Of a stretch of DNA of 64,000 nucleotides, positions 27,048-36,162 are shown piece by piece (position 1 is the first letter of the stretch; each line of letters begins with the position of its first letter). The DNA comes from Streptomyces sp. NRRL S-455. Its GTDB lineage: Bacteria; Actinomycetota; Actinomycetes; Streptomycetales; Streptomycetaceae. The notes beneath the pieces were generated by a model. The model was given only the letters and a program-made list of their open reading frames with translations, had not been told where the DNA came from and searched no databases. Both the position numbers and the translations under genes were made by a program. The stretch covers positions 10,530-74,529 of the forward strand of contig NZ_JOCT01000033.1 of NCBI RefSeq assembly GCF_000717875.1, written 5' to 3'.

Positions 27048-27181
27048 CGCCTGTTCCTCACGTCGGCCCCGCGACCCGCCTTCCCCGCGCCGCGGGCGGT
27101 TGCCGAGACATACGCACACCTGGACGACTGTGTTCAGCCGTGTCCCCGATTCACCGGCGACTCGATGGGAACACGTGTGAG

Positions 27182-28000
27182 GTGGTCATCCCCGTCCATG
27201 ACGTGAACCCCGCGCGACGCACCCCCTGGGTGACGTACGCGCTGCTCGCCGCCAACATCGTCGTGTTCCTGCTCACCCCCGGCATGGCCGGCTCCGTGAC
27301 GGGCGGGAGCAGCCTGGCCGAACTGTGCCACCTCCAGGCGTTCCTGGACCATTACGCGGCGGTGCCCAGGGAGCTGATCCACCATCAGATGCCACGGCTG
27401 GTGCCCACGGGCGACGTCGGGGTGGGTGCGCGGGGAGCCGGCTGCGTGGTCGGCCCCCCGCCCTACGACAAGTCCCCGGAACTCAGCGTCCTGACGGCGA
27501 TGTTCCTGCACGGCAGCTGGCTGCACCTGCTGGGCAACATGCTGTTCCTGTGGATCTTCGGCAACAACATCGAGGACCGGTTGGGACACATCCGGTTCCT
27601 GCTCTTCTACGCCGTCTGCGGATACGCGGCCGCGTATGTGTTCGCCCTTGCCGACTCCAGCTCGGCCGGCCCCCTGATCGGCGCCTCCGGGGCGATCGCC
27701 GGCGTGCTGGGCGCCTACCTCGTGCTGTACCCGAAGGCCCGGGTCTGGGTCCTGGTCCCCTTCCTGATCTTCCTGCCGCTGCGGCTGCCGGCCTGGCTCG
27801 TCCTCGGCTCCTGGTTCGCGCTCCAGGCGGTGTACTCGTCCGGTGAGGGCGTCTCCGAGGCGGGGACCGTGGCCTACCTGGCGCACGTCGCGGGTTTTGT
27901 GGCGGGCATGCTGATCGCCTGGCCGCTGCGTCCCGGCACCCCGCCCCCGCCGGAGCCGCGCGGTGTGCTGTTCGGCAGGCGCGCACGGCCCGGGTGGTGA
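27182..28000 (+). CDS. Rhomboid-family intramembrane serine protease
   Basis: A 272-residue polytopic protein. The rhomboid dyad is visible: Ser in GASGAIAGVLGAYL and His in HVAGFVAGMLIAWPL. HGSWLHLLGNMLFLWIFGNNIEDRLG is the conserved TM2 region. An N-terminal arm MVIPVHDVNPARRTPWVTYALLAANIVVFLL is typical. GTG 27182 is the most likely start; the frame stays open upstream to 27140. Substrates are unknown. Confidence 0.88.
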   Translation: MVIPVHDVNPARRTPWVTYALLAANIVVFLLTPGMAGSVTGGSSLAELCHLQAFLDHYAAVPRELIHHQMPRLVPTGDVGVGARGAGCVVGPPPYDKSPELSVLTAMFLHGSWLHLLGNMLFLWIFGNNIEDRLGHIRFLLFYAVCGYAAAYVFALADSSSAGPLIGASGAIAGVLGAYLVLYPKARVWVLVPFLIFLPLRLPAWLVLGSWFALQAVYSSGEGVSEAGTVAYLAHVAGFVAGMLIAWPLRPGTPPPPEPRGVLFGRRARPGW

Positions 28001-28011
28001 GGACGGCCGAC

Positions 28012-28027
28012 CCGGCCCAAGGGCCGG
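28012..28027. terminator. Compact inverted repeat after rhomboid gene
   Basis: CCGGCCC-AA-GGGCCGG, 12 bases after the rhomboid stop, could fold as a short GC stem. It overlaps a degenerate version of the palindrome found upstream of the stress genes (GGCCGACCCGGCCC, 28005-28018), so it may instead be a regulator site for the kinase gene at 28117. Confidence 0.4.
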
Positions 28028-28116
28028 CGACCGCCTCGACAGGTGTGCTCACGTGGAGGGCGGACCGTTCCGGCATGATGAGGGGTGCCAGCGACACCTG
28101 ATCCGGAGGAGCGGGG

Positions 28117-29856
28117 ATGGCGGACAGTCCGGCCGAGGAGCGCAGGAGCCGTCCGGCGGCACCCCAGTTGCGGCTGGATGAGCTGCTGGAGGGACTCCAG
28201 GCGCAGGTGGAGCAGGTCCGCGCGGCCCGGGACCGGGTGCACACGCTGCTGGACGCGGTCCTCGCCATCGGCACCGATCTGGATCTCGACGTCGTACTGC
28301 GGCGGATCACCGAGTCCGCGGTCACCCTGGTGGACGCCCGGTACGGGGCCCTGGGCGTGCTGGGTGAGGAAGGGAAGATCCGGCAGTTCATCACGGTCGG
28401 CATGGACGAGGACACCATCCGCGCCATCGGCCACTATCCCGAGGGCCAGGGCATCCTGGGCCTGCTGATCAGGGAGCCGGAGCCGCTGCGGCTGGCCGAC
28501 CTGGGCCGGCATGCCGACTCGGTGGGCTTCCCCGAAGGCCATCCGCCGATGACGACGTTCCTGGGCGCGCCGGTGCGCGTGCGCGACCAGGTCTTCGGAA
28601 ATCTGTACCTGACCGACAAGCGCGGCGGCGCGGAGTTCGACGACGATGACGAGGCGGTGCTGCGCACCCTCGCGGCCGCGGCGGGCGTCGCGATCGACAA
28701 CGCGCGCCTGTACGAGGACACCCGCCGCAGGGAGCGGTGGCTGGCGGCGAGCAGCGAACTGACCCGCAGCCTGTTGTCCGGCACCGACCCGGACCAGGTG
28801 CTGCACCGAGTCGCCGCGACCGTCAGGGAGTTGTCCGGCGCTGATCTGGTGACGCTGGCGGTGCCGTTCGACGGCGGCGACGAGCTGGTGATCGAGGCGG
28901 CCGACGGCGAAGGCGCCGAGCGGGTGCAGGGATTGGTGCTGGCCGCCACCACACTGGCCGCGAAGGTCTACCACTCCAACGAGCGAATCACCAGCGGTGC
29001 GCTGTCCGGCGAGGCTCAGGCGGGAGGCGGCTCCGCGGCGCTGATCGATCTGGGGCCGGGGTTCCTGCTCCCGCTGGGAGGCGGCGAGCATGTCCGCGGG
29101 GTCCTGCAGGTCGCCAACCGGGCCGGCGGGGCCGGGTTCTCGGACTCCACCATGACCATGATCAGCGGTTTCGCCGACCAGGCGGCGCTGGCGCTGGAGA
29201 TCGCCGAGCACCGTCGCGAGGCCGACCAGTTGCTGGTGCTGAGCGATCGCGATCGCATCGCCCGGGACCTGCACGACCTGGCCATCCAGCGGCTGTTCGC
29301 CTCCGGCCTGACACTGAACTCGGTACTCGGCCGCGTCTCCGACCGGCCCCAGGTGGCCGAGCGGGTCCAGCGGGTCGTCGACGACCTCGACGACACCATC
29401 AAGACGGTACGGGGCACGATCTACGCGCTGCACGAGCGCGACCGCTCCGACGGCCGCGGCGGACTGCGCGCGAAGCTTCTCGCCGAGACCGACCAGGCCG
29501 CCGCTGTGCTGGGTTTCAGTCCCGCTCTGCGGATGTCCGGTCTGCTGGACACCGACGTGCCCTCCGGCCATGCCGAGCACCTCGTCGCGGTGCTGCGGGA
29601 AACGCTGTCGAACGCCGCCCGGCACGCGCATGCCACCGCCGTCGAGGTCGCCGCCGAGACGGATGGCAGCCGGCTGCGGCTGCGCGTCGCCGACAACGGA
29701 ACCGGTATCGACCCGGCCGTCGCCCGCCGCAGCGGCCTGGACAACCTCCGCCGGCGCGCCACCGACCTCGGCGGCAGCTTCACCCTCACCCCGAACGAGC
29801 CCACCGGCACGGTCGCGGAATGGGCGGTGCCGTTGCCCGCACACATGCACGCCTGA
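28117..29856 (+). CDS. DevS/DosS-like histidine kinase with two GAF domains
   Basis: A 579-residue soluble kinase. GAF1 (about 55-195) contains GHPPMTTFLGAPVRVRDQVFGNLYLTDK, with H142 at the position where DevS/DosS proteins bind haem; GAF2 (about 220-355) follows. The HisKA_3 domain has DRIARDLHDLAIQRLF with phospho-acceptor H386, then an HATPase domain (LRETLSNAARHAHA, RVADNGTGID). Such kinases sense oxygen, NO or CO. No regulator is adjacent; the likely partner is the DevR-like gene at 33,254-33,946. Haem binding is inferred. Confidence 0.9.
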   Translation: MADSPAEERRSRPAAPQLRLDELLEGLQAQVEQVRAARDRVHTLLDAVLAIGTDLDLDVVLRRITESAVTLVDARYGALGVLGEEGKIRQFITVGMDEDTIRAIGHYPEGQGILGLLIREPEPLRLADLGRHADSVGFPEGHPPMTTFLGAPVRVRDQVFGNLYLTDKRGGAEFDDDDEAVLRTLAAAAGVAIDNARLYEDTRRRERWLAASSELTRSLLSGTDPDQVLHRVAATVRELSGADLVTLAVPFDGGDELVIEAADGEGAERVQGLVLAATTLAAKVYHSNERITSGALSGEAQAGGGSAALIDLGPGFLLPLGGGEHVRGVLQVANRAGGAGFSDSTMTMISGFADQAALALEIAEHRREADQLLVLSDRDRIARDLHDLAIQRLFASGLTLNSVLGRVSDRPQVAERVQRVVDDLDDTIKTVRGTIYALHERDRSDGRGGLRAKLLAETDQAAAVLGFSPALRMSGLLDTDVPSGHAEHLVAVLRETLSNAARHAHATAVEVAAETDGSRLRLRVADNGTGIDPAVARRSGLDNLRRRATDLGGSFTLTPNEPTGTVAEWAVPLPAHMHA

Positions 29857-30033
29857 CCCTGTCGGAACTCGCGTTCGACAAACATCTCCCGCGAGCCGAA
29901 AGCCAACAGCCGCCGAGGGCACCGATTTATGTGATTCCTGACATCGATCTTCATCCGTCTGCTTTGATTGATCATCGATTGGCGAGCGTCGAGAGACTTC
30001 TCTGAGCTCCCTCATTTGTGCAAGGAGCACGCT
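29857..30033. other. AT-rich leader region before the GTPase operon
   Basis: The 177 bases between the kinase and the GTPase gene are markedly AT-richer than the surroundings (for example ATTTATGTGATTCCTGACAT at about 29926). It probably holds the operon promoter and marks the edge of acquired DNA. I could not assign -35/-10 boxes with confidence. Confidence 0.5.
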
Positions 30034-30699
30034 TTGCCGCTGCCTGTGATCGTCGGTGCCGTCGTGCTGACGGGAGCAATCGGGACGGCTGTCGCCGTTC
30101 GTCGTCTCAAACGTCCCGCAAAGATCATCTTGCTCGGTGAAGGGATGAGCGGCAAGACCACTCTGCTGAACACCTGGCAGGGCAAGTGGGGTGAGCCGGT
30201 GCACCGGACCCACCCAGCGGGCGAGTTCATCGGACGAATCCGGCTGGACACCGGGAAGAAGGTTCTCTGGGTCGACAAGCCGCTCAAGTTCAGGAACGTC
30301 AAGGACTTCAGCGGGATGGACGAGATCCTCGACGCCTCCCGAGACGGCGTGGAGGCGGCCCAATACATCATCTACCTCATCAAGGCACCCCATCTCGAAG
30401 CGGATGAGGAAGCCCCCGGAGCATCCGAGGCGTATGAGCGGCTGGCTGCTGACGTCGCCCGTATCAAGAGATACAGCACCAAGATCAAAAAGGTGATCTT
30501 CGTCATCACTTTCGCCGACAAGGACCCCCGATACGATCTGCTGGGCTCGGCCGCCTATCTGACTCGTGTGCGCGGGCAACTCAGCGACCTCATCAGCCTG
30601 CTGAGTATGCGCGAAAAGACCAAGGTGGTGGTCGGCAGCCTCGCCACTCTCGAATCCGCCGAACTCCTCGCGAGCGAAGTCGTCCAGGCGATGCTATGA
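30034..30699 (+). CDS. Membrane-anchored small Ras-like GTPase of unknown system
   Basis: A 221-residue protein starting at TTG, with AAGGAG (30022-30027) six bases upstream; an in-frame start at 29968 lacks this support. Residues 3-22 form one membrane helix. The P-loop is GEGMSGKTT (35-43); DFSG is a candidate DxxG switch II, FADKD a degenerate N/TKxD, and GSLAT a possible G5. About 220 residues with an N-terminal anchor resembles TRAFAC-type GTPases found in conflict-type operons, but I cannot name a family. Its stop overlaps the next ATG (ATGA). Codon usage is less GC-biased than neighbours, suggesting transfer. Confidence 0.75.
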   Translation: MPLPVIVGAVVLTGAIGTAVAVRRLKRPAKIILLGEGMSGKTTLLNTWQGKWGEPVHRTHPAGEFIGRIRLDTGKKVLWVDKPLKFRNVKDFSGMDEILDASRDGVEAAQYIIYLIKAPHLEADEEAPGASEAYERLAADVARIKRYSTKIKKVIFVITFADKDPRYDLLGSAAYLTRVRGQLSDLISLLSMREKTKVVVGSLATLESAELLASEVVQAML

Positions 30700-31199
30700 G
30701 CGTCCGTCTGATGCTGGTCTACGCGGAATACGAGAGCGGCGAGCCGCCCTTCGTCTGGCTCGACGGGATGCGCCGGAGCCCCGAGGAGAAGCGACGGGCC
30801 ATCCACGTGATCGGCCGACTCGGCCGAGAAGGGCGGCACCGCCGCGGGGAGCCGGGTCTGGCAGTTCGCTTCAGGGGTTGGCTGCTGATCCAGACAACAG
30901 TCGGGCTCCGGCATGACGGCAGTGGGCCACAGGGTGTCGTCGTGATCGTCGAAGGCCCCGACGCCGCGACTGGTTGGGAGGCCGCGGTCACGGAACGGAT
31001 CACCGAGGTACTGCTCGCCGGCCGGATCACCGTGGATCGTGAGAAGTTCCGCTCCGTTCTGGAATGGGGTGCCAGATCGAGGATCGAGGAGGGGAAGCAG
31101 GCCCTGAAGGCCATGGTGGGAGACCCATGGGCGGCCGCCAGAACAAGAAGGAAGCGAATCGACCAGAAGACAGATGGGGAACATGCAGATTCCGGATGA
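30696..31199 (+). CDS. Unknown protein, second gene of GTPase operon
   Basis: A 167-residue soluble protein (MSVRLMLVYAEYESGEPPFVWLDGMRRSPEEKRRAI...), with alternating strands in the first 90 residues and a long basic helix at the end (VDREKFRSVLEWGARSRIEEGKQALKAM; RTRRKRIDQK). No membrane segment or catalytic motif is evident. Translation is coupled to the GTPase by an ATGA overlap and its 3' end overlaps the third gene. By position it is likely an adaptor or regulator of the GTPase; this is inference. Confidence 0.65.
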   Translation: MSVRLMLVYAEYESGEPPFVWLDGMRRSPEEKRRAIHVIGRLGREGRHRRGEPGLAVRFRGWLLIQTTVGLRHDGSGPQGVVVIVEGPDAATGWEAAVTERITEVLLAGRITVDREKFRSVLEWGARSRIEEGKQALKAMVGDPWAAARTRRKRIDQKTDGEHADSG

Positions 31200-32004
31200 A
31201 CTGGCCGATCGGCTGCTGACCGTATCGCTGGAGGACTTCGTTCGCATCTCCGACGACGACCCGGAGCGGCTGCGTGACCATCGCATCACGATCGTGCCGG
31301 TTCCGCTGTTCGGCCGGTGGAAGCGCTTCCCCGAGTTGCGGGAGACCGTCCTGCATCCTGACCTGGCCTATGTGCGCGATCGTGACACCGCCTATCGCTA
31401 TGTGGCAGCCGAGAACGCGATTCAGGGGACAGCGTTGCGGAAGTGCCGTCTCGCACTCAAGGTATGCAAGGAACTCGGGGCCAGGTCGCTGCACGTCATG
31501 GAGTCTCGGGCGGAGTCAGGCGGGTACAGCGTCGACAACGAGTACACCGCTCAGACACGGGCCGGACGGAACGGAGAGGCGCGCAAGAAGCCGTCGAACG
31601 CGAGCCTGTCCGTCGAGGAGAAGAGTTCGCTCCGTCTTGCCGCCCATCTACGTCGCGATCTGAAGCTGACCATCGAGGCGGAAGGGAACTGGCCAGGCCA
31701 CGCGCCTTCGATCGCAGGAGCCCTGGGGGTCCTGGATGGGTACGATCCGAGCGACGTCGAAGACCTGCGAATCTTCATTGAGCAGCGGGACGGGACGCAT
31801 AATGTGACCACAAGTCTTTCGCTCGTGGTCAATCTGCTCAGCGAGCTGAATCGCGATTTCGATCTGTTCTGCAAGACCGCCGCCGGTCTCGAGGCAACAC
31901 TGGGACGCCGGCAGGTGAAGGCCGAAGCGAGCATGAGCAACACATTCAAGATCCAGTTCGAACGAACGAGGATGGTCTCGCTCGCCCTCAAAGTCGAGTT
32001 CTGA
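31174..32004 (+). CDS. Unknown protein, third gene of GTPase operon
   Basis: A 276-residue protein with no recognised domain. N-terminal MQIPDELADRLLTVSLEDFVRI leads to a helical region (TALRKCRLALKVCKELGARSLHVME), then strand-rich segments: KLTIEAEGNW, VEDLRIFIEQRDG, TTSLSLVVNLLSEL and a C-terminal beta pair NTFKIQFERTRMVSLALKVEF. It could be the effector of the operon. Two starts are possible: ATG 31174 and ATG 31183 (GGGGA close upstream). Overlaps gene two by 26 bases. Lower GC than neighbours. Confidence 0.65.
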   Translation: MGNMQIPDELADRLLTVSLEDFVRISDDDPERLRDHRITIVPVPLFGRWKRFPELRETVLHPDLAYVRDRDTAYRYVAAENAIQGTALRKCRLALKVCKELGARSLHVMESRAESGGYSVDNEYTAQTRAGRNGEARKKPSNASLSVEEKSSLRLAAHLRRDLKLTIEAEGNWPGHAPSIAGALGVLDGYDPSDVEDLRIFIEQRDGTHNVTTSLSLVVNLLSELNRDFDLFCKTAAGLEATLGRRQVKAEASMSNTFKIQFERTRMVSLALKVEF

Positions 32005-32097
32005 ATGGTGCCGCCCGCACGCGGTCGAGGCGGCACACGCGCCATCGACCCCCGACATCCCCGGCCCGTTCGTCAGGGCCGTACGCCGCCACGGGTG

Positions 32098-32111
32098 GGG
32101 CCGATCGGCCC
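32098..32111. promoter_or_regulatory. Perfect palindrome upstream of universal stress protein gene
   Basis: GGGCCGATCGGCCC is a perfect 14-bp palindrome 80 bases before the USP start. Near-copies occur upstream of the DevR-like, CBS and adhE genes (34066, 34261, 35250). I infer a binding site of the local DevR-like regulator, since members of this family activate stress genes from near-palindromic sites. Confidence 0.65.
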
Positions 32112-32190
32112 TGCTGCCGAGAGGCCTCCGGCTGACACCGTGTCAACGGGACGCGGAAGGCGCCCCGTTCACTGCCAGGAGGTCCTTGCC

Positions 32191-33087
32191 ATGCCCCGTA
32201 CCGTGACCGTCGGAGTGGACGGCTCCCCCGAGAGTCTCGCCGCCGCGGAGTGGGCCGCGCGCGAGGCGGAACTGCGTGGTCTCCCCCTGCACCTGGTGCA
32301 TGCCTGGGACTGGCAGCCCTACGCCCTGCCGGTGCCTGACAACGCGGCACACCGGCACTGGGGTGGGAAGGTCCTGCGCGAGGCGACCAAGCGGCTGCAC
32401 GAGCACCACCCCGGCCTCGAGATCACCTCCCAGCAGGTTCCGCAACCGCCCATGACGGCGCTGGTGTCGGCGTCCGCGGACGCCGAACCGCTGGTCATCG
32501 GATCCAGAGGCCTCGGCGGCACCGTGGGTTTCCTCGTCGGTTCCGTCGGGCTCGCTCTCGTCGCGCACACCGACCGCCCCGTCGTCCTCGTACGCTCCGG
32601 TGTGAGCGCCGAGGACGAGCACCGGCTGGACGCGGACGGCCGGCCGTCGAGCACCACGCCGTACCGGGACGTCGTGCTGGGGCTGGACCATCAGCACCCC
32701 GACGACGCGGTCATCGCGTTCGCGTTCGAGGCGGCGGCCCGTCGTTCGGCCAGGCTGCGCGTGGTGCACGGATGGAGCCTGCCGCCCTATTTCGCGTACG
32801 GGCTTCCCCCGGACCCGGTACTCAACGCAGAACTCGCCCGTGAGGAGGCGAACGCCGTCGAGGCGGTCCTGGCGCCGTGGCGCGAGAAGTTCCCCGGTGT
32901 GGAGGTCGTGGAGCAGACCTCGGCCGGCAGCGCCGGCGACCATCTGGTGGACGCCGCCCGGGAAGCGTCGCTGGTCGTCGTCGGCCGTCGCATCCGGCGT
33001 ACCCCGCTGGGTGCCCGCATCGGACCCGTCACGCACACGGTCCTGCATCACGCCACGGCGCCGGTCGCGGTGATCCCGCACGAGTGA
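32191..33087 (+). CDS. Tandem universal stress protein (UspA x2)
   Basis: A 298-residue protein of two UspA domains (about 3-136 and 155-297). Domain 1 has the ATP-binding loop GSRGLGGTVGFLVGSVG; domain 2 has GRRIRRTPLGARIGPVTHTVLHHA, a weaker version. AGGAGG (32177-32182) precedes the ATG; longer upstream frames lack it. Tandem USPs are typical targets of DevR/DosR regulators in hypoxia and dormancy, and a matching palindrome sits upstream. Confidence 0.92.
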   Translation: MPRTVTVGVDGSPESLAAAEWAAREAELRGLPLHLVHAWDWQPYALPVPDNAAHRHWGGKVLREATKRLHEHHPGLEITSQQVPQPPMTALVSASADAEPLVIGSRGLGGTVGFLVGSVGLALVAHTDRPVVLVRSGVSAEDEHRLDADGRPSSTTPYRDVVLGLDHQHPDDAVIAFAFEAAARRSARLRVVHGWSLPPYFAYGLPPDPVLNAELAREEANAVEAVLAPWREKFPGVEVVEQTSAGSAGDHLVDAAREASLVVVGRRIRRTPLGARIGPVTHTVLHHATAPVAVIPHE

Positions 33088-33136
33088 CCCAAGGACCGAG
33101 TGATGGCGAGGAGGTGTGGCGGTGTCCGGGCCAGGC

Positions 33137-33221
33137 GGGGATCCACGGTCAGTGAGGCGCCGCCATGCACGACGGCGCGGCCGGTGCGGCCGAAGCCGTT
33201 GATGCCCGCCTCCGCGTTCAT
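33137..33221 (-). pseudogene. Possible N-terminal remnant of glyceraldehyde-3-phosphate dehydrogenase
   Basis: On the minus strand an ATG at 33221 reads MNAEAGINGFGRTGRAVV, containing the INGFGRxGR motif that opens GAPDH, followed by unrelated sequence. Only about 15 residues match, so this is a weak call. It fits the decayed character of the surrounding island. Confidence 0.3.
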
Positions 33222-33253
33222 GTGCCCTGCGGGTAGGGGCCGTGTGGGGAGGC

Positions 33254-33946
33254 TCAGTGTCCTTCGTGCCGCAGCCGGTCCTGGGCCTGGGTGGCGATGA
33301 CCGCCGCCTGGATGCGGCGCTCCACGCCGAGCTTGGCGAGCAGGCGGGAGATGTGGTTCTTGACCGTCTTCTCGGCGAGGTAGAGCCGCTGGCCGATCTG
33401 GCGGTTGGTCAGGCCCTCGCCGATCAGGGCCAGGATCTCCCGCTCGCGGGCGGTGAGCCCCGGCAGGGCGTCCGGCTCCTCCTCCGGCTGCTGGTTCTGG
33501 CGCAGCCGGGCCATCACCTTGGCGGTGGCGCTCGGGTCGAGCAGGGACTGGCCGACGGCCACCGCGCGCACGGCGGAGACCAGGTCCGTGCCCTGGATCT
33601 GCTTCAGCACGTATCCGGAGGCGCCGGCCATGATCGAGTCGAGCAGGGCCTCCTCGTCGTCGAACGAGGTGAGCATCAGGCAGGACAGGTCCGGCATGCG
33701 CGAGCGCAGCTCGCGGCAGACGGTCACGCCGTCGCCGTCGGGCAGGCGCACGTCGAGCACGGCCACCTGCGGACGCAGCGCGGGAACGCGCACCAGGGCC
33801 TGTTCGACGGTGCCGGCCTCGCCGATCACAGCGATGTCCGGCTCGTCGTTCAGCAGGTCGCGCACCCCGCGCCGTACCACCTCGTGGTCGTCCAGCAAGA
33901 AGACCCGGATCGGGTTGTCGGTACCGGGTCGCTCGCTGTCCGCCAT
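33254..33946 (-). CDS. DevR/DosR-like NarL-family response regulator
   Basis: A 230-residue regulator. The receiver has acidic pair D19-D20, phospho-acceptor D65 ([13 protein letters not shown]) and the conserved Lys in GYVLKQ. The LuxR-type HTH is [48 protein letters not shown], closely DevR-like. The start is ATG 33946 (MADSERPG); the longer frame upstream is the promoter region. Likely partner of the DevS-like kinase at 28,117. A palindrome 120-133 bases upstream suggests autoregulation. Confidence 0.92.
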
Positions 33947-34065
33947 CGACGGCTCCTGTTCTGTCTCGTCTGTGTCGTCCGTGTCCCGCACCGGAACACG
34001 CCTCTCATGGGCGGGACCGGTCCATCCCTGTCGCAGATCTTGCGCGATGCAGCACTGAACGGCCA

Positions 34066-34079
34066 GGGCCGACCGGCCC
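34066..34079. promoter_or_regulatory. Palindromic site upstream of DevR-like gene
   Basis: GGGCCGACCGGCCC differs by one base from the perfect palindrome at 32098. It lies 120 bases upstream of the regulator start. The T5 run after it means a small terminator on the plus strand is an alternative, but no plus-strand gene precedes it closely. Confidence 0.6.
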
Positions 34080-34260
34080 TTTTTGCTCTCACGTTTCCGC
34101 CTTCCCACGGGTAGCGGTCTCTTTCGCACGGGGCCTGACGGCGCCACTGCCAGGGCAGGCCGGCACTTCCCCGCGGCGGCGGCGTGCCCGGGTGACGGCC
34201 GGTATCACCGCCGCCCCCCGGGGGCCGGCCGACGAGAGGGCGCTTCGGCCAGGGAGCTCG

Positions 34261-34274
34261 GTACCGGTCGGCCC
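34261..34274. promoter_or_regulatory. Related site upstream of CBS-BON gene
   Basis: GTACCGGTCGGCCC matches 11 of 14 positions of the 32098 palindrome, with the right half intact. It is 231 bases before the CBS gene start. Confidence 0.4.
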
Positions 34275-34504
34275 TGCCCCTTCAAGCCCGGTGCGCAGGA
34301 GGCTGAAGAGGCATCAGGGGGCCGGCCACCCGGGACAGTCCAACGGGAGAGCGGCAGCGGTCTGGCCGCCCTCACAAGTGGGTCCCGGCTCCCGATGCCC
34401 ACCGCGCACCACAAGGCCCGACGGGGATACGGGCCGGCCCGGAGCGGCCGTACGCAGGGAAGACCGGTGGCCCTCCACAGGCACCAGCGGAGAAGGGAAC
34501 TGCC

Positions 34505-35227
34505 GTGAAGACCCGCAAGGTGGGCGAAGTGATGACCCCCGACGTCATCCAGGCGTACCAGGACACACCGTTCAAGGACGTGGCACAGCTCCTGGCCCGG
34601 CACCGGATCAGCGGCCTGCCGGTGGTGGACTCCGACGACAAGGTCCTCGGCGTCATCTCCGAAACCGACCTGGTGCACCGGCAGGCGGCGCAGGCCGAGC
34701 GCGGCCGGGAAGGGCGCTTCCGGCTGCCGGCACTGCGCCGCACGGCACGTGTCGCGGCGGCCAAGGCCCGCGCCATGACCGCCGGGCAGCTGATGACGAC
34801 ACCCGCGATCACCGTGCACCCGGAGCAACGCGTCGCGGCCGCGGCGCGAGTGATGGAGCGTCACCGCATCGAACGGCTGCCCGTGGTGGACGAGGAGCAC
34901 CGCCTGATCGGCATCGCCACCCGCCGTGACCTGCTGCGGGTCTTCCTGCGCACCGAGGCGGAGATCCGTCAGGAGATCATCGACGAGGTACTGACCCACG
35001 CCATGTGCCTGCCGCCGCACACTGTCCTCGTCTCGGTCCACGACGGCACGGCCACGCTGGAGGGACGCCTGGAACGCCGCAGCGACATCCCGGTGGCGGT
35101 CCGGCTGACCTGGCGGGTGGACGGCGTGGTGGGTGTGCTGAACGGCCTCACCTTCCGTGACGACGACACCCGCCCGCCCGAGAAGCACTCCTCCCGGATC
35201 GCCCGCCACTGGCTTTCCGAGCGGTGA
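34505..35227 (+). CDS. CBS-pair plus BON-domain protein
   Basis: A 240-residue protein starting at GTG: CBS1 (about 6-62, KVGEVMTPDVIQAYQDTPFKDVAQLL and GLPVVDSDDKVLGVISETDL), a basic linker, CBS2 (about 95-150, TAGQLMTTPAITVHPEQRVAAAARVM), then a BON-like domain (about 155-220, VLVSVHDGTATLEGRLERRSDIPVAVRLTWRVDGVVGVLNGL). CBS pairs bind adenine nucleotides. This architecture is common in DevR/DosR-type stress regions of actinobacteria. Confidence 0.9.
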   Translation: MKTRKVGEVMTPDVIQAYQDTPFKDVAQLLARHRISGLPVVDSDDKVLGVISETDLVHRQAAQAERGREGRFRLPALRRTARVAAAKARAMTAGQLMTTPAITVHPEQRVAAAARVMERHRIERLPVVDEEHRLIGIATRRDLLRVFLRTEAEIRQEIIDEVLTHAMCLPPHTVLVSVHDGTATLEGRLERRSDIPVAVRLTWRVDGVVGVLNGLTFRDDDTRPPEKHSSRIARHWLSER

Positions 35228-35249
35228 CCCCGACCGGCCCCGGCGACCC

Positions 35250-35263
35250 GGGCCGGTCGGGCC
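35250..35263. promoter_or_regulatory. Related palindromic site upstream of truncated adhE
   Basis: GGGCCGGTCGGGCC matches 12 of 14 positions of the 32098 palindrome and is 146 bases before the adhE start. Part of the presumed DevR-like regulon. Confidence 0.4.
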
Positions 35264-35409
35264 CGGACCGGGACCTTCGACGCCTGGGGGGCGGCTCCCG
35301 TCCGCGGGACGGTGGCGGTGGGAGCGGTACCGGCGCCCGCGGTGCCGCTCCCGCACGGCAGGCTGCCGGACTTCCGGCCTACGACCTCGACGATGGAGGC
35401 ACAACCCTC

Positions 35410-36162
35410 ATGACCCGACAGGACGCCCGAACCAGCCCCGCCGCCCCGGGCGGCGAGCCGTCCGAGACCGTCATCGCCGTCGACCGGCTGGTCACGAACG
35501 GGCTCAAGGCTCTCGCCGACTATGAGGATCTGACGCAGGAGCAGGTCGACCACATCGTCAGGAAGGCGTCGGTCGCCGCCCTGGACCAGCACACCGCACT
35601 GGCCCGCCTGGCGGTGGAGGAGACCGGACGCGGTGTCTTCGAGGACAAGGCGGCCAAGAACATGTTCGCGTGCGAACACGTCACGCACAGCATGGGAGGT
35701 ATGAAGACCGTCGGTGTCATCGCCCGTGACGACATCGAGGACATGGTCGAGATCGCGGAACCGGTGGGGGTGGTGTGCGCGATCACTCCGGTCACCAACC
35801 CGACCTCCACCACGATCTTCAAGGCGCTGATGGCGCTGAAGACCCGCAATCCGGTCGTGTTCGCCTTCCACCCCTCCGCCCAGCGGTGCAGTGCCGAGGC
35901 GGCCCGGGTCGTGCGCGACGCGGCCGTCGCCGCGGGCGCTCCGGAGCACTGCGTCCAGTGGATCGAGACCCCGTCGGTCGAGGCGACCGGCACGCTCATG
36001 CGCCACCCGGGCGTCTCGCTGATCCTGGCCACCGGCGGCAACGCCATGGTCAAGGCCGCCTACTCGGCCGGCAAGCCCGCCCTGGGCGTCGGCGCCGGCA
36101 ACGTCCCGGCCTACGTCCACAGAGCGCCAGGCTCCGCGGAGTACCGGTCTCACCACGGCTGA
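35410..36162 (+). pseudogene. adhE: adhE, truncated after the N-terminal part of the aldehyde dehydrogenase domain
   Basis: The first ~240 of 250 residues match the start of bifunctional aldehyde-alcohol dehydrogenase AdhE: EQVDHIVRKASVAALDQHTALARLAVEETGRGVFEDKAAKN, PVGVVCAITPVTNPTSTTIFKALMALKTRNPVVFAFHPSAQ, LATGGNAMVKAAYSAGKPALGVGAGNVPAYV. Full AdhE is about 870 residues. Homology stops near base 36,122 and 11 unrelated residues lead to a stop, so the catalytic cysteine region and the whole iron-alcohol dehydrogenase half are missing. It cannot make ethanol from acetyl-CoA. I see no 3' part nearby. Confidence 0.85.

Follow-up and report, generated by a model that had tools for sequence, protein, structure and literature searches.

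In a 64,000-nucleotide stretch of DNA from Streptomyces sp. NRRL S-455 (contig NZ_JOCT01000033.1; the whole stretch is called the window below) we characterized a self-contained cassette of three tightly overlapping plus-strand genes, apparently a signalling or defence module not described before. Gene 1 encodes a predicted P-loop GTPase with one membrane helix, gene 2 a protein with a candidate longin-like domain and gene 3 a highly conserved protein. Our leading proposal, which we put forward tentatively, is a compact, horizontally moved module in which a G-protein anchored in the membrane would recruit, or switch, a longin-like platform bearing the output domain of gene 3. The parts of the cassette are as follows:

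29924 to 30033, plus strand: conserved leader with presumed promoter and ribosome-binding site AAGGAG (from blastn ends and a four-way alignment)
30034 to 30699, plus strand: gene 1, Ras-superfamily-like GTPase of 221 aa, predicted to be membrane-anchored, TTG start
30696 to 31199, plus strand: gene 2, 167 aa, candidate longin-like GTPase-platform domain (N-terminal ~127 residues) followed by a charged linker
31183 to 32004, plus strand: gene 3, 273 aa (276 aa from ATG 31174), highly conserved, presumed output domain
32005, no strand: right limit of the cassette, DNA similarity stopping 1 to 3 bases past the gene 3 stop codon (from blastn ends)

We compared the window with three other loci of 20 kb each, namely L002 (S. 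iakyrus), L003 (S. indiaensis) and L004 (Streptomyces sp. NBC_00620). Similarity at the DNA level (blastn) starts at 29924, 29931 or 29955 depending on the relative, ~80–110 bp before the TTG, and stops at 32005–32007 beside the stop codon of gene 3; the remaining DNA of the window yielded no match in these loci except for one distant 254-bp piece. The trio is a self-contained cassette with sharp limits because the similarity covers leader to last stop only and the flanks differ from those in the window. The gene coordinates and overlaps of a first-pass annotation of this DNA were right, whereas its left limit, 29857, is merely the first base after the stop codon of a kinase gene. The ATGA junction it described between genes 1 and 2 is confirmed by the coordinates of the open reading frames, as is the 26-nt overlap of genes 2 and 3, of which 17 nt are left when gene 3 is started at ATG 31183 as for some relatives. 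Genes 2 and 3 are probably translationally coupled in the window.

Judged from the sequence, the GTPase most likely starts at TTG 30034 behind AAGGAG, because most aligned relatives start there, leader and start are conserved in the four loci, and little open frame lies upstream (only ~22 codons in the window and ~21 in G268, the genome of L003, with stop-to-stop frames of 243 and 242 codons). Not all public annotations of the GTPase agree: P0004 from S. qaidamensis is listed with 293 aa as opposed to 221 aa, a 72-residue N-terminal extension (compared with window positions 29968–30033). That the start is conserved and that stops lie a short way upstream in both the window and G268 suggests an annotation error in this longer form. 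A sigma-70 consensus promoter was looked for in the leader and none was found.

All three genes are real and under purifying selection. Comparison with L002, L003 and L004 by the Nei-Gojobori method gave ratios of nonsynonymous to synonymous substitution (dN/dS) of 0.15–0.18 for gene 1, 0.37–0.38 for gene 2 and 0.13–0.14 for gene 3. The GC content at third codon positions (GC3) is 0.76–0.78 in the cassette and 0.87–0.92 in five neighbouring genes, and the overall GC content is 0.621 compared with a mean of 0.717 for the 64-kb window. An equally low value occurs in one out of 2477 sliding 2075-bp segments of the window, and the sole run of segments below 0.66 lies at the cassette. The deviating codon usage noted in the first-pass annotation is thus borne out, and a foreign composition is supported.

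The cassette was found in three different settings among the four loci read. L002 (8404–17536) and L003 (8659–15007) represent the same chromosomal region with shared outer flanks, but the genes right beside the cassette differ: a metallophosphoesterase and a GH43 gene in L002, NmrA-like and SMI1/KNR4 genes in L003. This region resembles a site of variable content; when its flank was searched in 150 genomes, partial matches at scattered places were obtained. In L004 (12040–18759) a Tn7-like set (TniQ/TnsD-, TniB/TnsC-, TnsB- and TnsA-like) directly adjoins a cassette in which genes 2 and 3 are fused. This cassette may be cargo of the Tn7-like set; a search for transposon ends around it gave no convincing terminal repeats. 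Taken together, the cassette has probably been moved horizontally or is transferable.

It is also rare. The GTPase was present in 2 of 392 Streptomyces genomes, the strain's own and G268. Gene 3 was found in one of 100 genomes (the strain's own), in full in one of 296 genomes of the class (again its own) and in one of 150 relatives of G268, which was G268 itself. These genome searches scored only part of the first-look candidates (7 of 32 in the strain's own genome, G000, for instance, and 5 of 30 in the class search), so misses are possible. Two further weak class-level matches to gene 3, which came from a 594-aa frame in two genomes and covered ~60 profile positions at 18.6 bits, were taken as chance. 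Among ~5.8 billion proteins, gene 1 is represented by 19 clusters and genes 2 and 3 by 9 each, the query's own counted; the named ones are mostly from Streptomyces and reach Kitasatospora and Actinomadura. No relatives of the cassette genes were detected in viral contigs, none of genes 1 and 3 (the two genes searched) in plasmids, and a literature search for the cassette including six locus tags found no report.

The three genes co-occur. All of them are present in each of the four loci read, and of the non-self clusters 6 of 8 for gene 2 and likewise 6 of 8 for gene 3 could be paired to a GTPase cluster by an equal-sized longest contig; neighbouring locus tags link five pairs of clusters. Two gene 2 and two gene 3 clusters remained unpaired (P0026, P0027, P0031 and P0036), one of each two lying on a contig shorter than 2 kb, and no partner was assigned to 5 of the 18 non-self GTPase clusters (P0006, P0009, P0012, P0018 and P0019). 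We found no relative in which gene 2 or gene 3 was shown to occur without the GTPase; such an occurrence, in unrelated contexts, is what the first-pass annotation had named as speaking against its proposal. Furthermore, in four of the eight non-self gene 3 clusters (P0032–P0035) genes 2 and 3 constitute a single protein of 431–436 residues. Because of these fusions the cassette appears to be essentially a two-component module consisting of the GTPase and a gene 2–3 partner. The linker DNA joining genes 2 and 3 is not the same in fused and split forms; a programmed frameshift at this place was considered from reading frames and linker DNA alone and was not adopted.

Gene 1 contains one hydrophobic helix near residues 4–22 (Kyte-Doolittle 2.16); the corresponding maxima are 0.94 in gene 2 and 0.83 in gene 3. 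By our own assignment the motifs are GEGMSGKTT (G1), DFSG (G3-like), TFAD (G4-like) and GSLAT (G5-like). The P-loop GxxxxGK[ST] and the DxxG motif are both present, and all 15 sequences aligned carry G35, S39, G40, K41, T42, D91, S93 and G94. The guanine-specificity motif NKxD is absent from gene 1 and TFxD is found instead (TYxD in P0019), T159 and D162 again being invariant in all 15; a weaker or changed preference for guanine would be expected from this. The P-loop and DxxG motifs agree with Ras superfamily/TRAFAC GTPases, as does the G-domain fold, and a P-loop GTPase fold is predicted for gene 1 with fair support, in keeping with the small GTPase with one N-terminal membrane helix that had been proposed at first sight.

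The GTPase could not be placed in a characterized system. Arf was the best Pfam family for the window GTPase, P0013 and P0014, below the cut-off. SRPRB gave no significant score, with two proteins touched at E 0.14 and 0.062. PF19993 and PF19975 are Pfam families of DO-GTPases, and none is listed for the window GTPase at E ≤ 10; PF19993 was seen in 4 of 11 members with a best score of 20.5 bits against a cut-off of 27, and the distant relative P0019 matches it with E 4e-4, also below the cut-off. Profile alignment (hhalign) of gene 1 to DO-GTPase2 covered 17 P-loop columns only (probability 52%), alignment to CvnD reached 5.9%, and no PF03029 match was obtained at E ≤ 1. A sequence search of the PDB returned weak P-loop matches only (best E 0.82 and 0.066). 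The clear match to a characterized GTPase system that could have overturned the first-pass annotation was therefore not seen in the Pfam and hhalign comparisons.

Genes 2 and 3 gave no significant match in Pfam, NCBIfam, PADLOC or PHROGs (in the latter nothing below E 0.1), and sequence searches of the PDB returned nothing credible (best E 0.015, collagen VI, for gene 2 and 0.66 for gene 3); this supports the first-pass view of them as two proteins that it could not assign. Pfam contains GAP1 and GASH models, and no GAP1, GASH or FNIII match was found in gene 2, gene 3 or 9 rows of A3. Gene 2 shows no match to the roadblock family Robl_LC7 (PF03259) at E ≤ 1 (hhalign 0.3%) and no PAS Pfam match. 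A structure model of moderate confidence gives its domain a roughly longin-like fold, and the structural neighbours listed for it are for the most part longin/roadblock domains that bind GTPases, among them SRX in complex with SR-beta. In the model one helix lies between strands 2 and 3 and two helices follow the sheet, a helix placement that fits a longin. For gene 3 the structure model offers no trustworthy fold. Of the layout originally suggested, an NTPase switch with a partner is supported, whereas an effector with a strand-rich C-terminus is unproved.

In the mechanism that we propose, the gene 1 GTPase would be held in the inner membrane by its N-terminal helix, with the G domain in the cytosol because positive residues follow the helix. 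The longin-like platform of gene 2 would bind the GTPase in one nucleotide state, and the gene 3 output domain, joined or coupled to gene 2, would in this way be recruited to the membrane or activated. The longin fold, a binding that depends on GTP, the way in which the signal runs and the kind of output are all inferred. Several observations weigh against this scheme: sequence profiles do not confirm the longin fold of gene 2; RsLOV rows (7 of 27) tie in Z with more residues aligned; Foldseek ranks LOV before TRAPPII for the gene 2 model; and its strand count does not exactly fit the longin/roadblock superfold, which weighs slightly against the proposal.

The strand count weighs likewise, and slightly, on a related reading that we regard as possible, with less assurance, namely that the cassette is a mobile bacterial counterpart of SR-beta/SRX. 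An anchored Ras-superfamily GTPase would here recruit a longin-like platform, sometimes fused to a new output domain, and would be unrelated to the roadblock-based MglAB and conservon systems. SR-beta, part of the eukaryotic signal recognition particle receptor, is a GTPase with a membrane helix, and its partner SR-alpha carries an N-terminal longin and, further along the chain, an output domain. The cassette GTPase likewise has a single N-terminal membrane helix and its partner may be a longin plus output domain. However, the SRPRB score is not significant, gene 3 is without Pfam match and hence lacks an SRP-type GTPase domain, and the cassette is bacterial, rare and found in varying settings.

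An unlikely alternative is a phage-conflict or abortive-infection module in which the GTPase senses a threat and frees gene 3 as a membrane-acting toxic effector. The model would be DO-GTPase/GAP1, for which Kaur et al. (2020; PMC7159879) describe a TRAFAC GTPase, sometimes with an N-terminal membrane segment, followed by a partner in mobile neighbourhoods. The cassette shares the membrane segment, the downstream partner and the mobile neighbourhood, and its patchy occurrence, foreign GC content and unrelated flanks, the sub-threshold match of P0019 to PF19993, the adjoining Tn7-like genes in L004 and a weak PDC-S10 match of a neighbour in L002 point in the same direction. It differs in its score under the PF19993 cut-off, in the 17-column hhalign match, in lacking a recognizable GAP1, GASH or FNIII protein and in showing no variable effector, as gene 3 is as conserved as the GTPase. 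PADLOC was run on the three genes, the fused protein P0033 and a few neighbours from the other loci, leaving out the window's own neighbours. It returned nothing at E ≤ 1 for the three genes and nothing at E ≤ 0.001 for P0033, consistent with the initial impression that no known defence module is recognizable. Among the neighbours sampled, the only matches were L004 Tn7-like genes to the TniQ and TnsB models and the L002 metallophosphoesterase to PDC-S10, the latter weak and partial (18.2 bits, E 2.8e-4). Patchiness and changing flanks would fit a conflict system, which the uniformly conserved gene 3 and the missing PADLOC match do not favour; the output may be regulatory or toxic. A defence role is possible but unsupported.

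We consider it improbable that gene 2 is a PAS/LOV-type sensor instead of a longin, with genes 2–3 sensing a ligand and controlling the GTPase. The RsLOV ties and the Foldseek ranking speak for it, and PAS, GAF and longin folds are described as related in PMC4917890; the missing PAS match and the helix placement, which on comparison of the longin and PAS topologies suits a longin better, speak against it. More improbable still is a mobile accessory cassette whose biochemical role is a different one, for example with an ATP-binding GHKL-like gene 3, or with no switch. The GHKL fold was not accepted for gene 3: ten-residue means of predicted local distance difference test scores (pLDDT) are 31–60 in the GHKL-like part of the model, hhalign gave 0.5%, and gene 3 does not figure in the 95 PF13581 matches that its own genome yielded.

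In the window, the cassette is flanked by a GAF/HisKA_3 (DevS-like) kinase gene, the end of which is 177 bp upstream of the GTPase start, and, downstream, by a Usp gene. The surrounding stress-type cluster (27140–36162) comprises a rhomboid, the kinase, a two-domain Usp, a LuxR-type response regulator, a CBS-BON protein and an aldehyde dehydrogenase. The last is a 312-aa frame (35224–36162) whose Pfam match reaches no further than position 224 of the 461 in the profile, so that it may be truncated or run on in another frame. A second DevS-like kinase in the same genome (G000, C2, 270598–272301) is 52% identical to the cassette-adjacent one. The suggestion that the block parted this kinase from its regulon is unproved. 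In the 19 kb around the nearest orthologue of the kinase (88%, G013) the only DNA match over 150 bp was the kinase itself, with no synteny at the cassette, so that an empty site was not found. Least likely of all is a conservon-like module serving the neighbouring kinase and stress genes, as suggested by these neighbours and by the pairing of a kinase with roadblock and GTPase in conservons (PMC13343842): the kinase has no DNA match in L002, L003 and L004 (other kinases there were not looked for systematically), the similarity block begins after it, gene 1 is unlike CvnD and gene 2 unlike Robl_LC7, and the genome already holds 11 PF03029 and 14 PF03259 matches.

The proposed switch, an anchored GTPase with a longin-like platform, has a functional parallel in the roadblock/longin-GTPase pairs described in PMC10933270 and PMC3521125; in the sources consulted, longins paired with GTPases are treated chiefly for Asgard archaea and eukaryotes. 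A longin in a bacterium would not by itself be new, because a table in one of these sources, PMC4917890, lists 'Longin/Roadblock' as present in bacteria. With MglA-MglB and the conservons (CvnA-D) the cassette has in common a small GTPase and a small partner protein in an operon, but gene 2 lacks Robl_LC7, gene 1 lacks PF03029 and has a membrane helix, no constant kinase was found and the modelled element order of gene 2 is roughly that of a longin and not of a roadblock. Group 1 Rup GTPases (Wuichet and Sogaard-Andersen 2014; PMC4316618) are likewise bacterial Ras-superfamily GTPases in operons with unknown-domain proteins; by their description, their neighbourhoods differ, with coiled-coil, OmpA, c-di-GMP or kinase genes. 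By the tests run, the cassette does not appear to be a conservon, an MglAB or a DO-GTPase system.

Genes 2 and 3 each represent a protein family for which the libraries searched gave no significant match. In the bacterial G-protein modules compared, the partner is a roadblock (MglAB, conservons) or GAP1 (DO-GTPases); if our proposal is true, pairing a membrane-anchored GTPase with a longin-like partner would add a third design, and the cassette, with its three genes, would be a simple system in which to test how a switch of this kind recruits its output protein.
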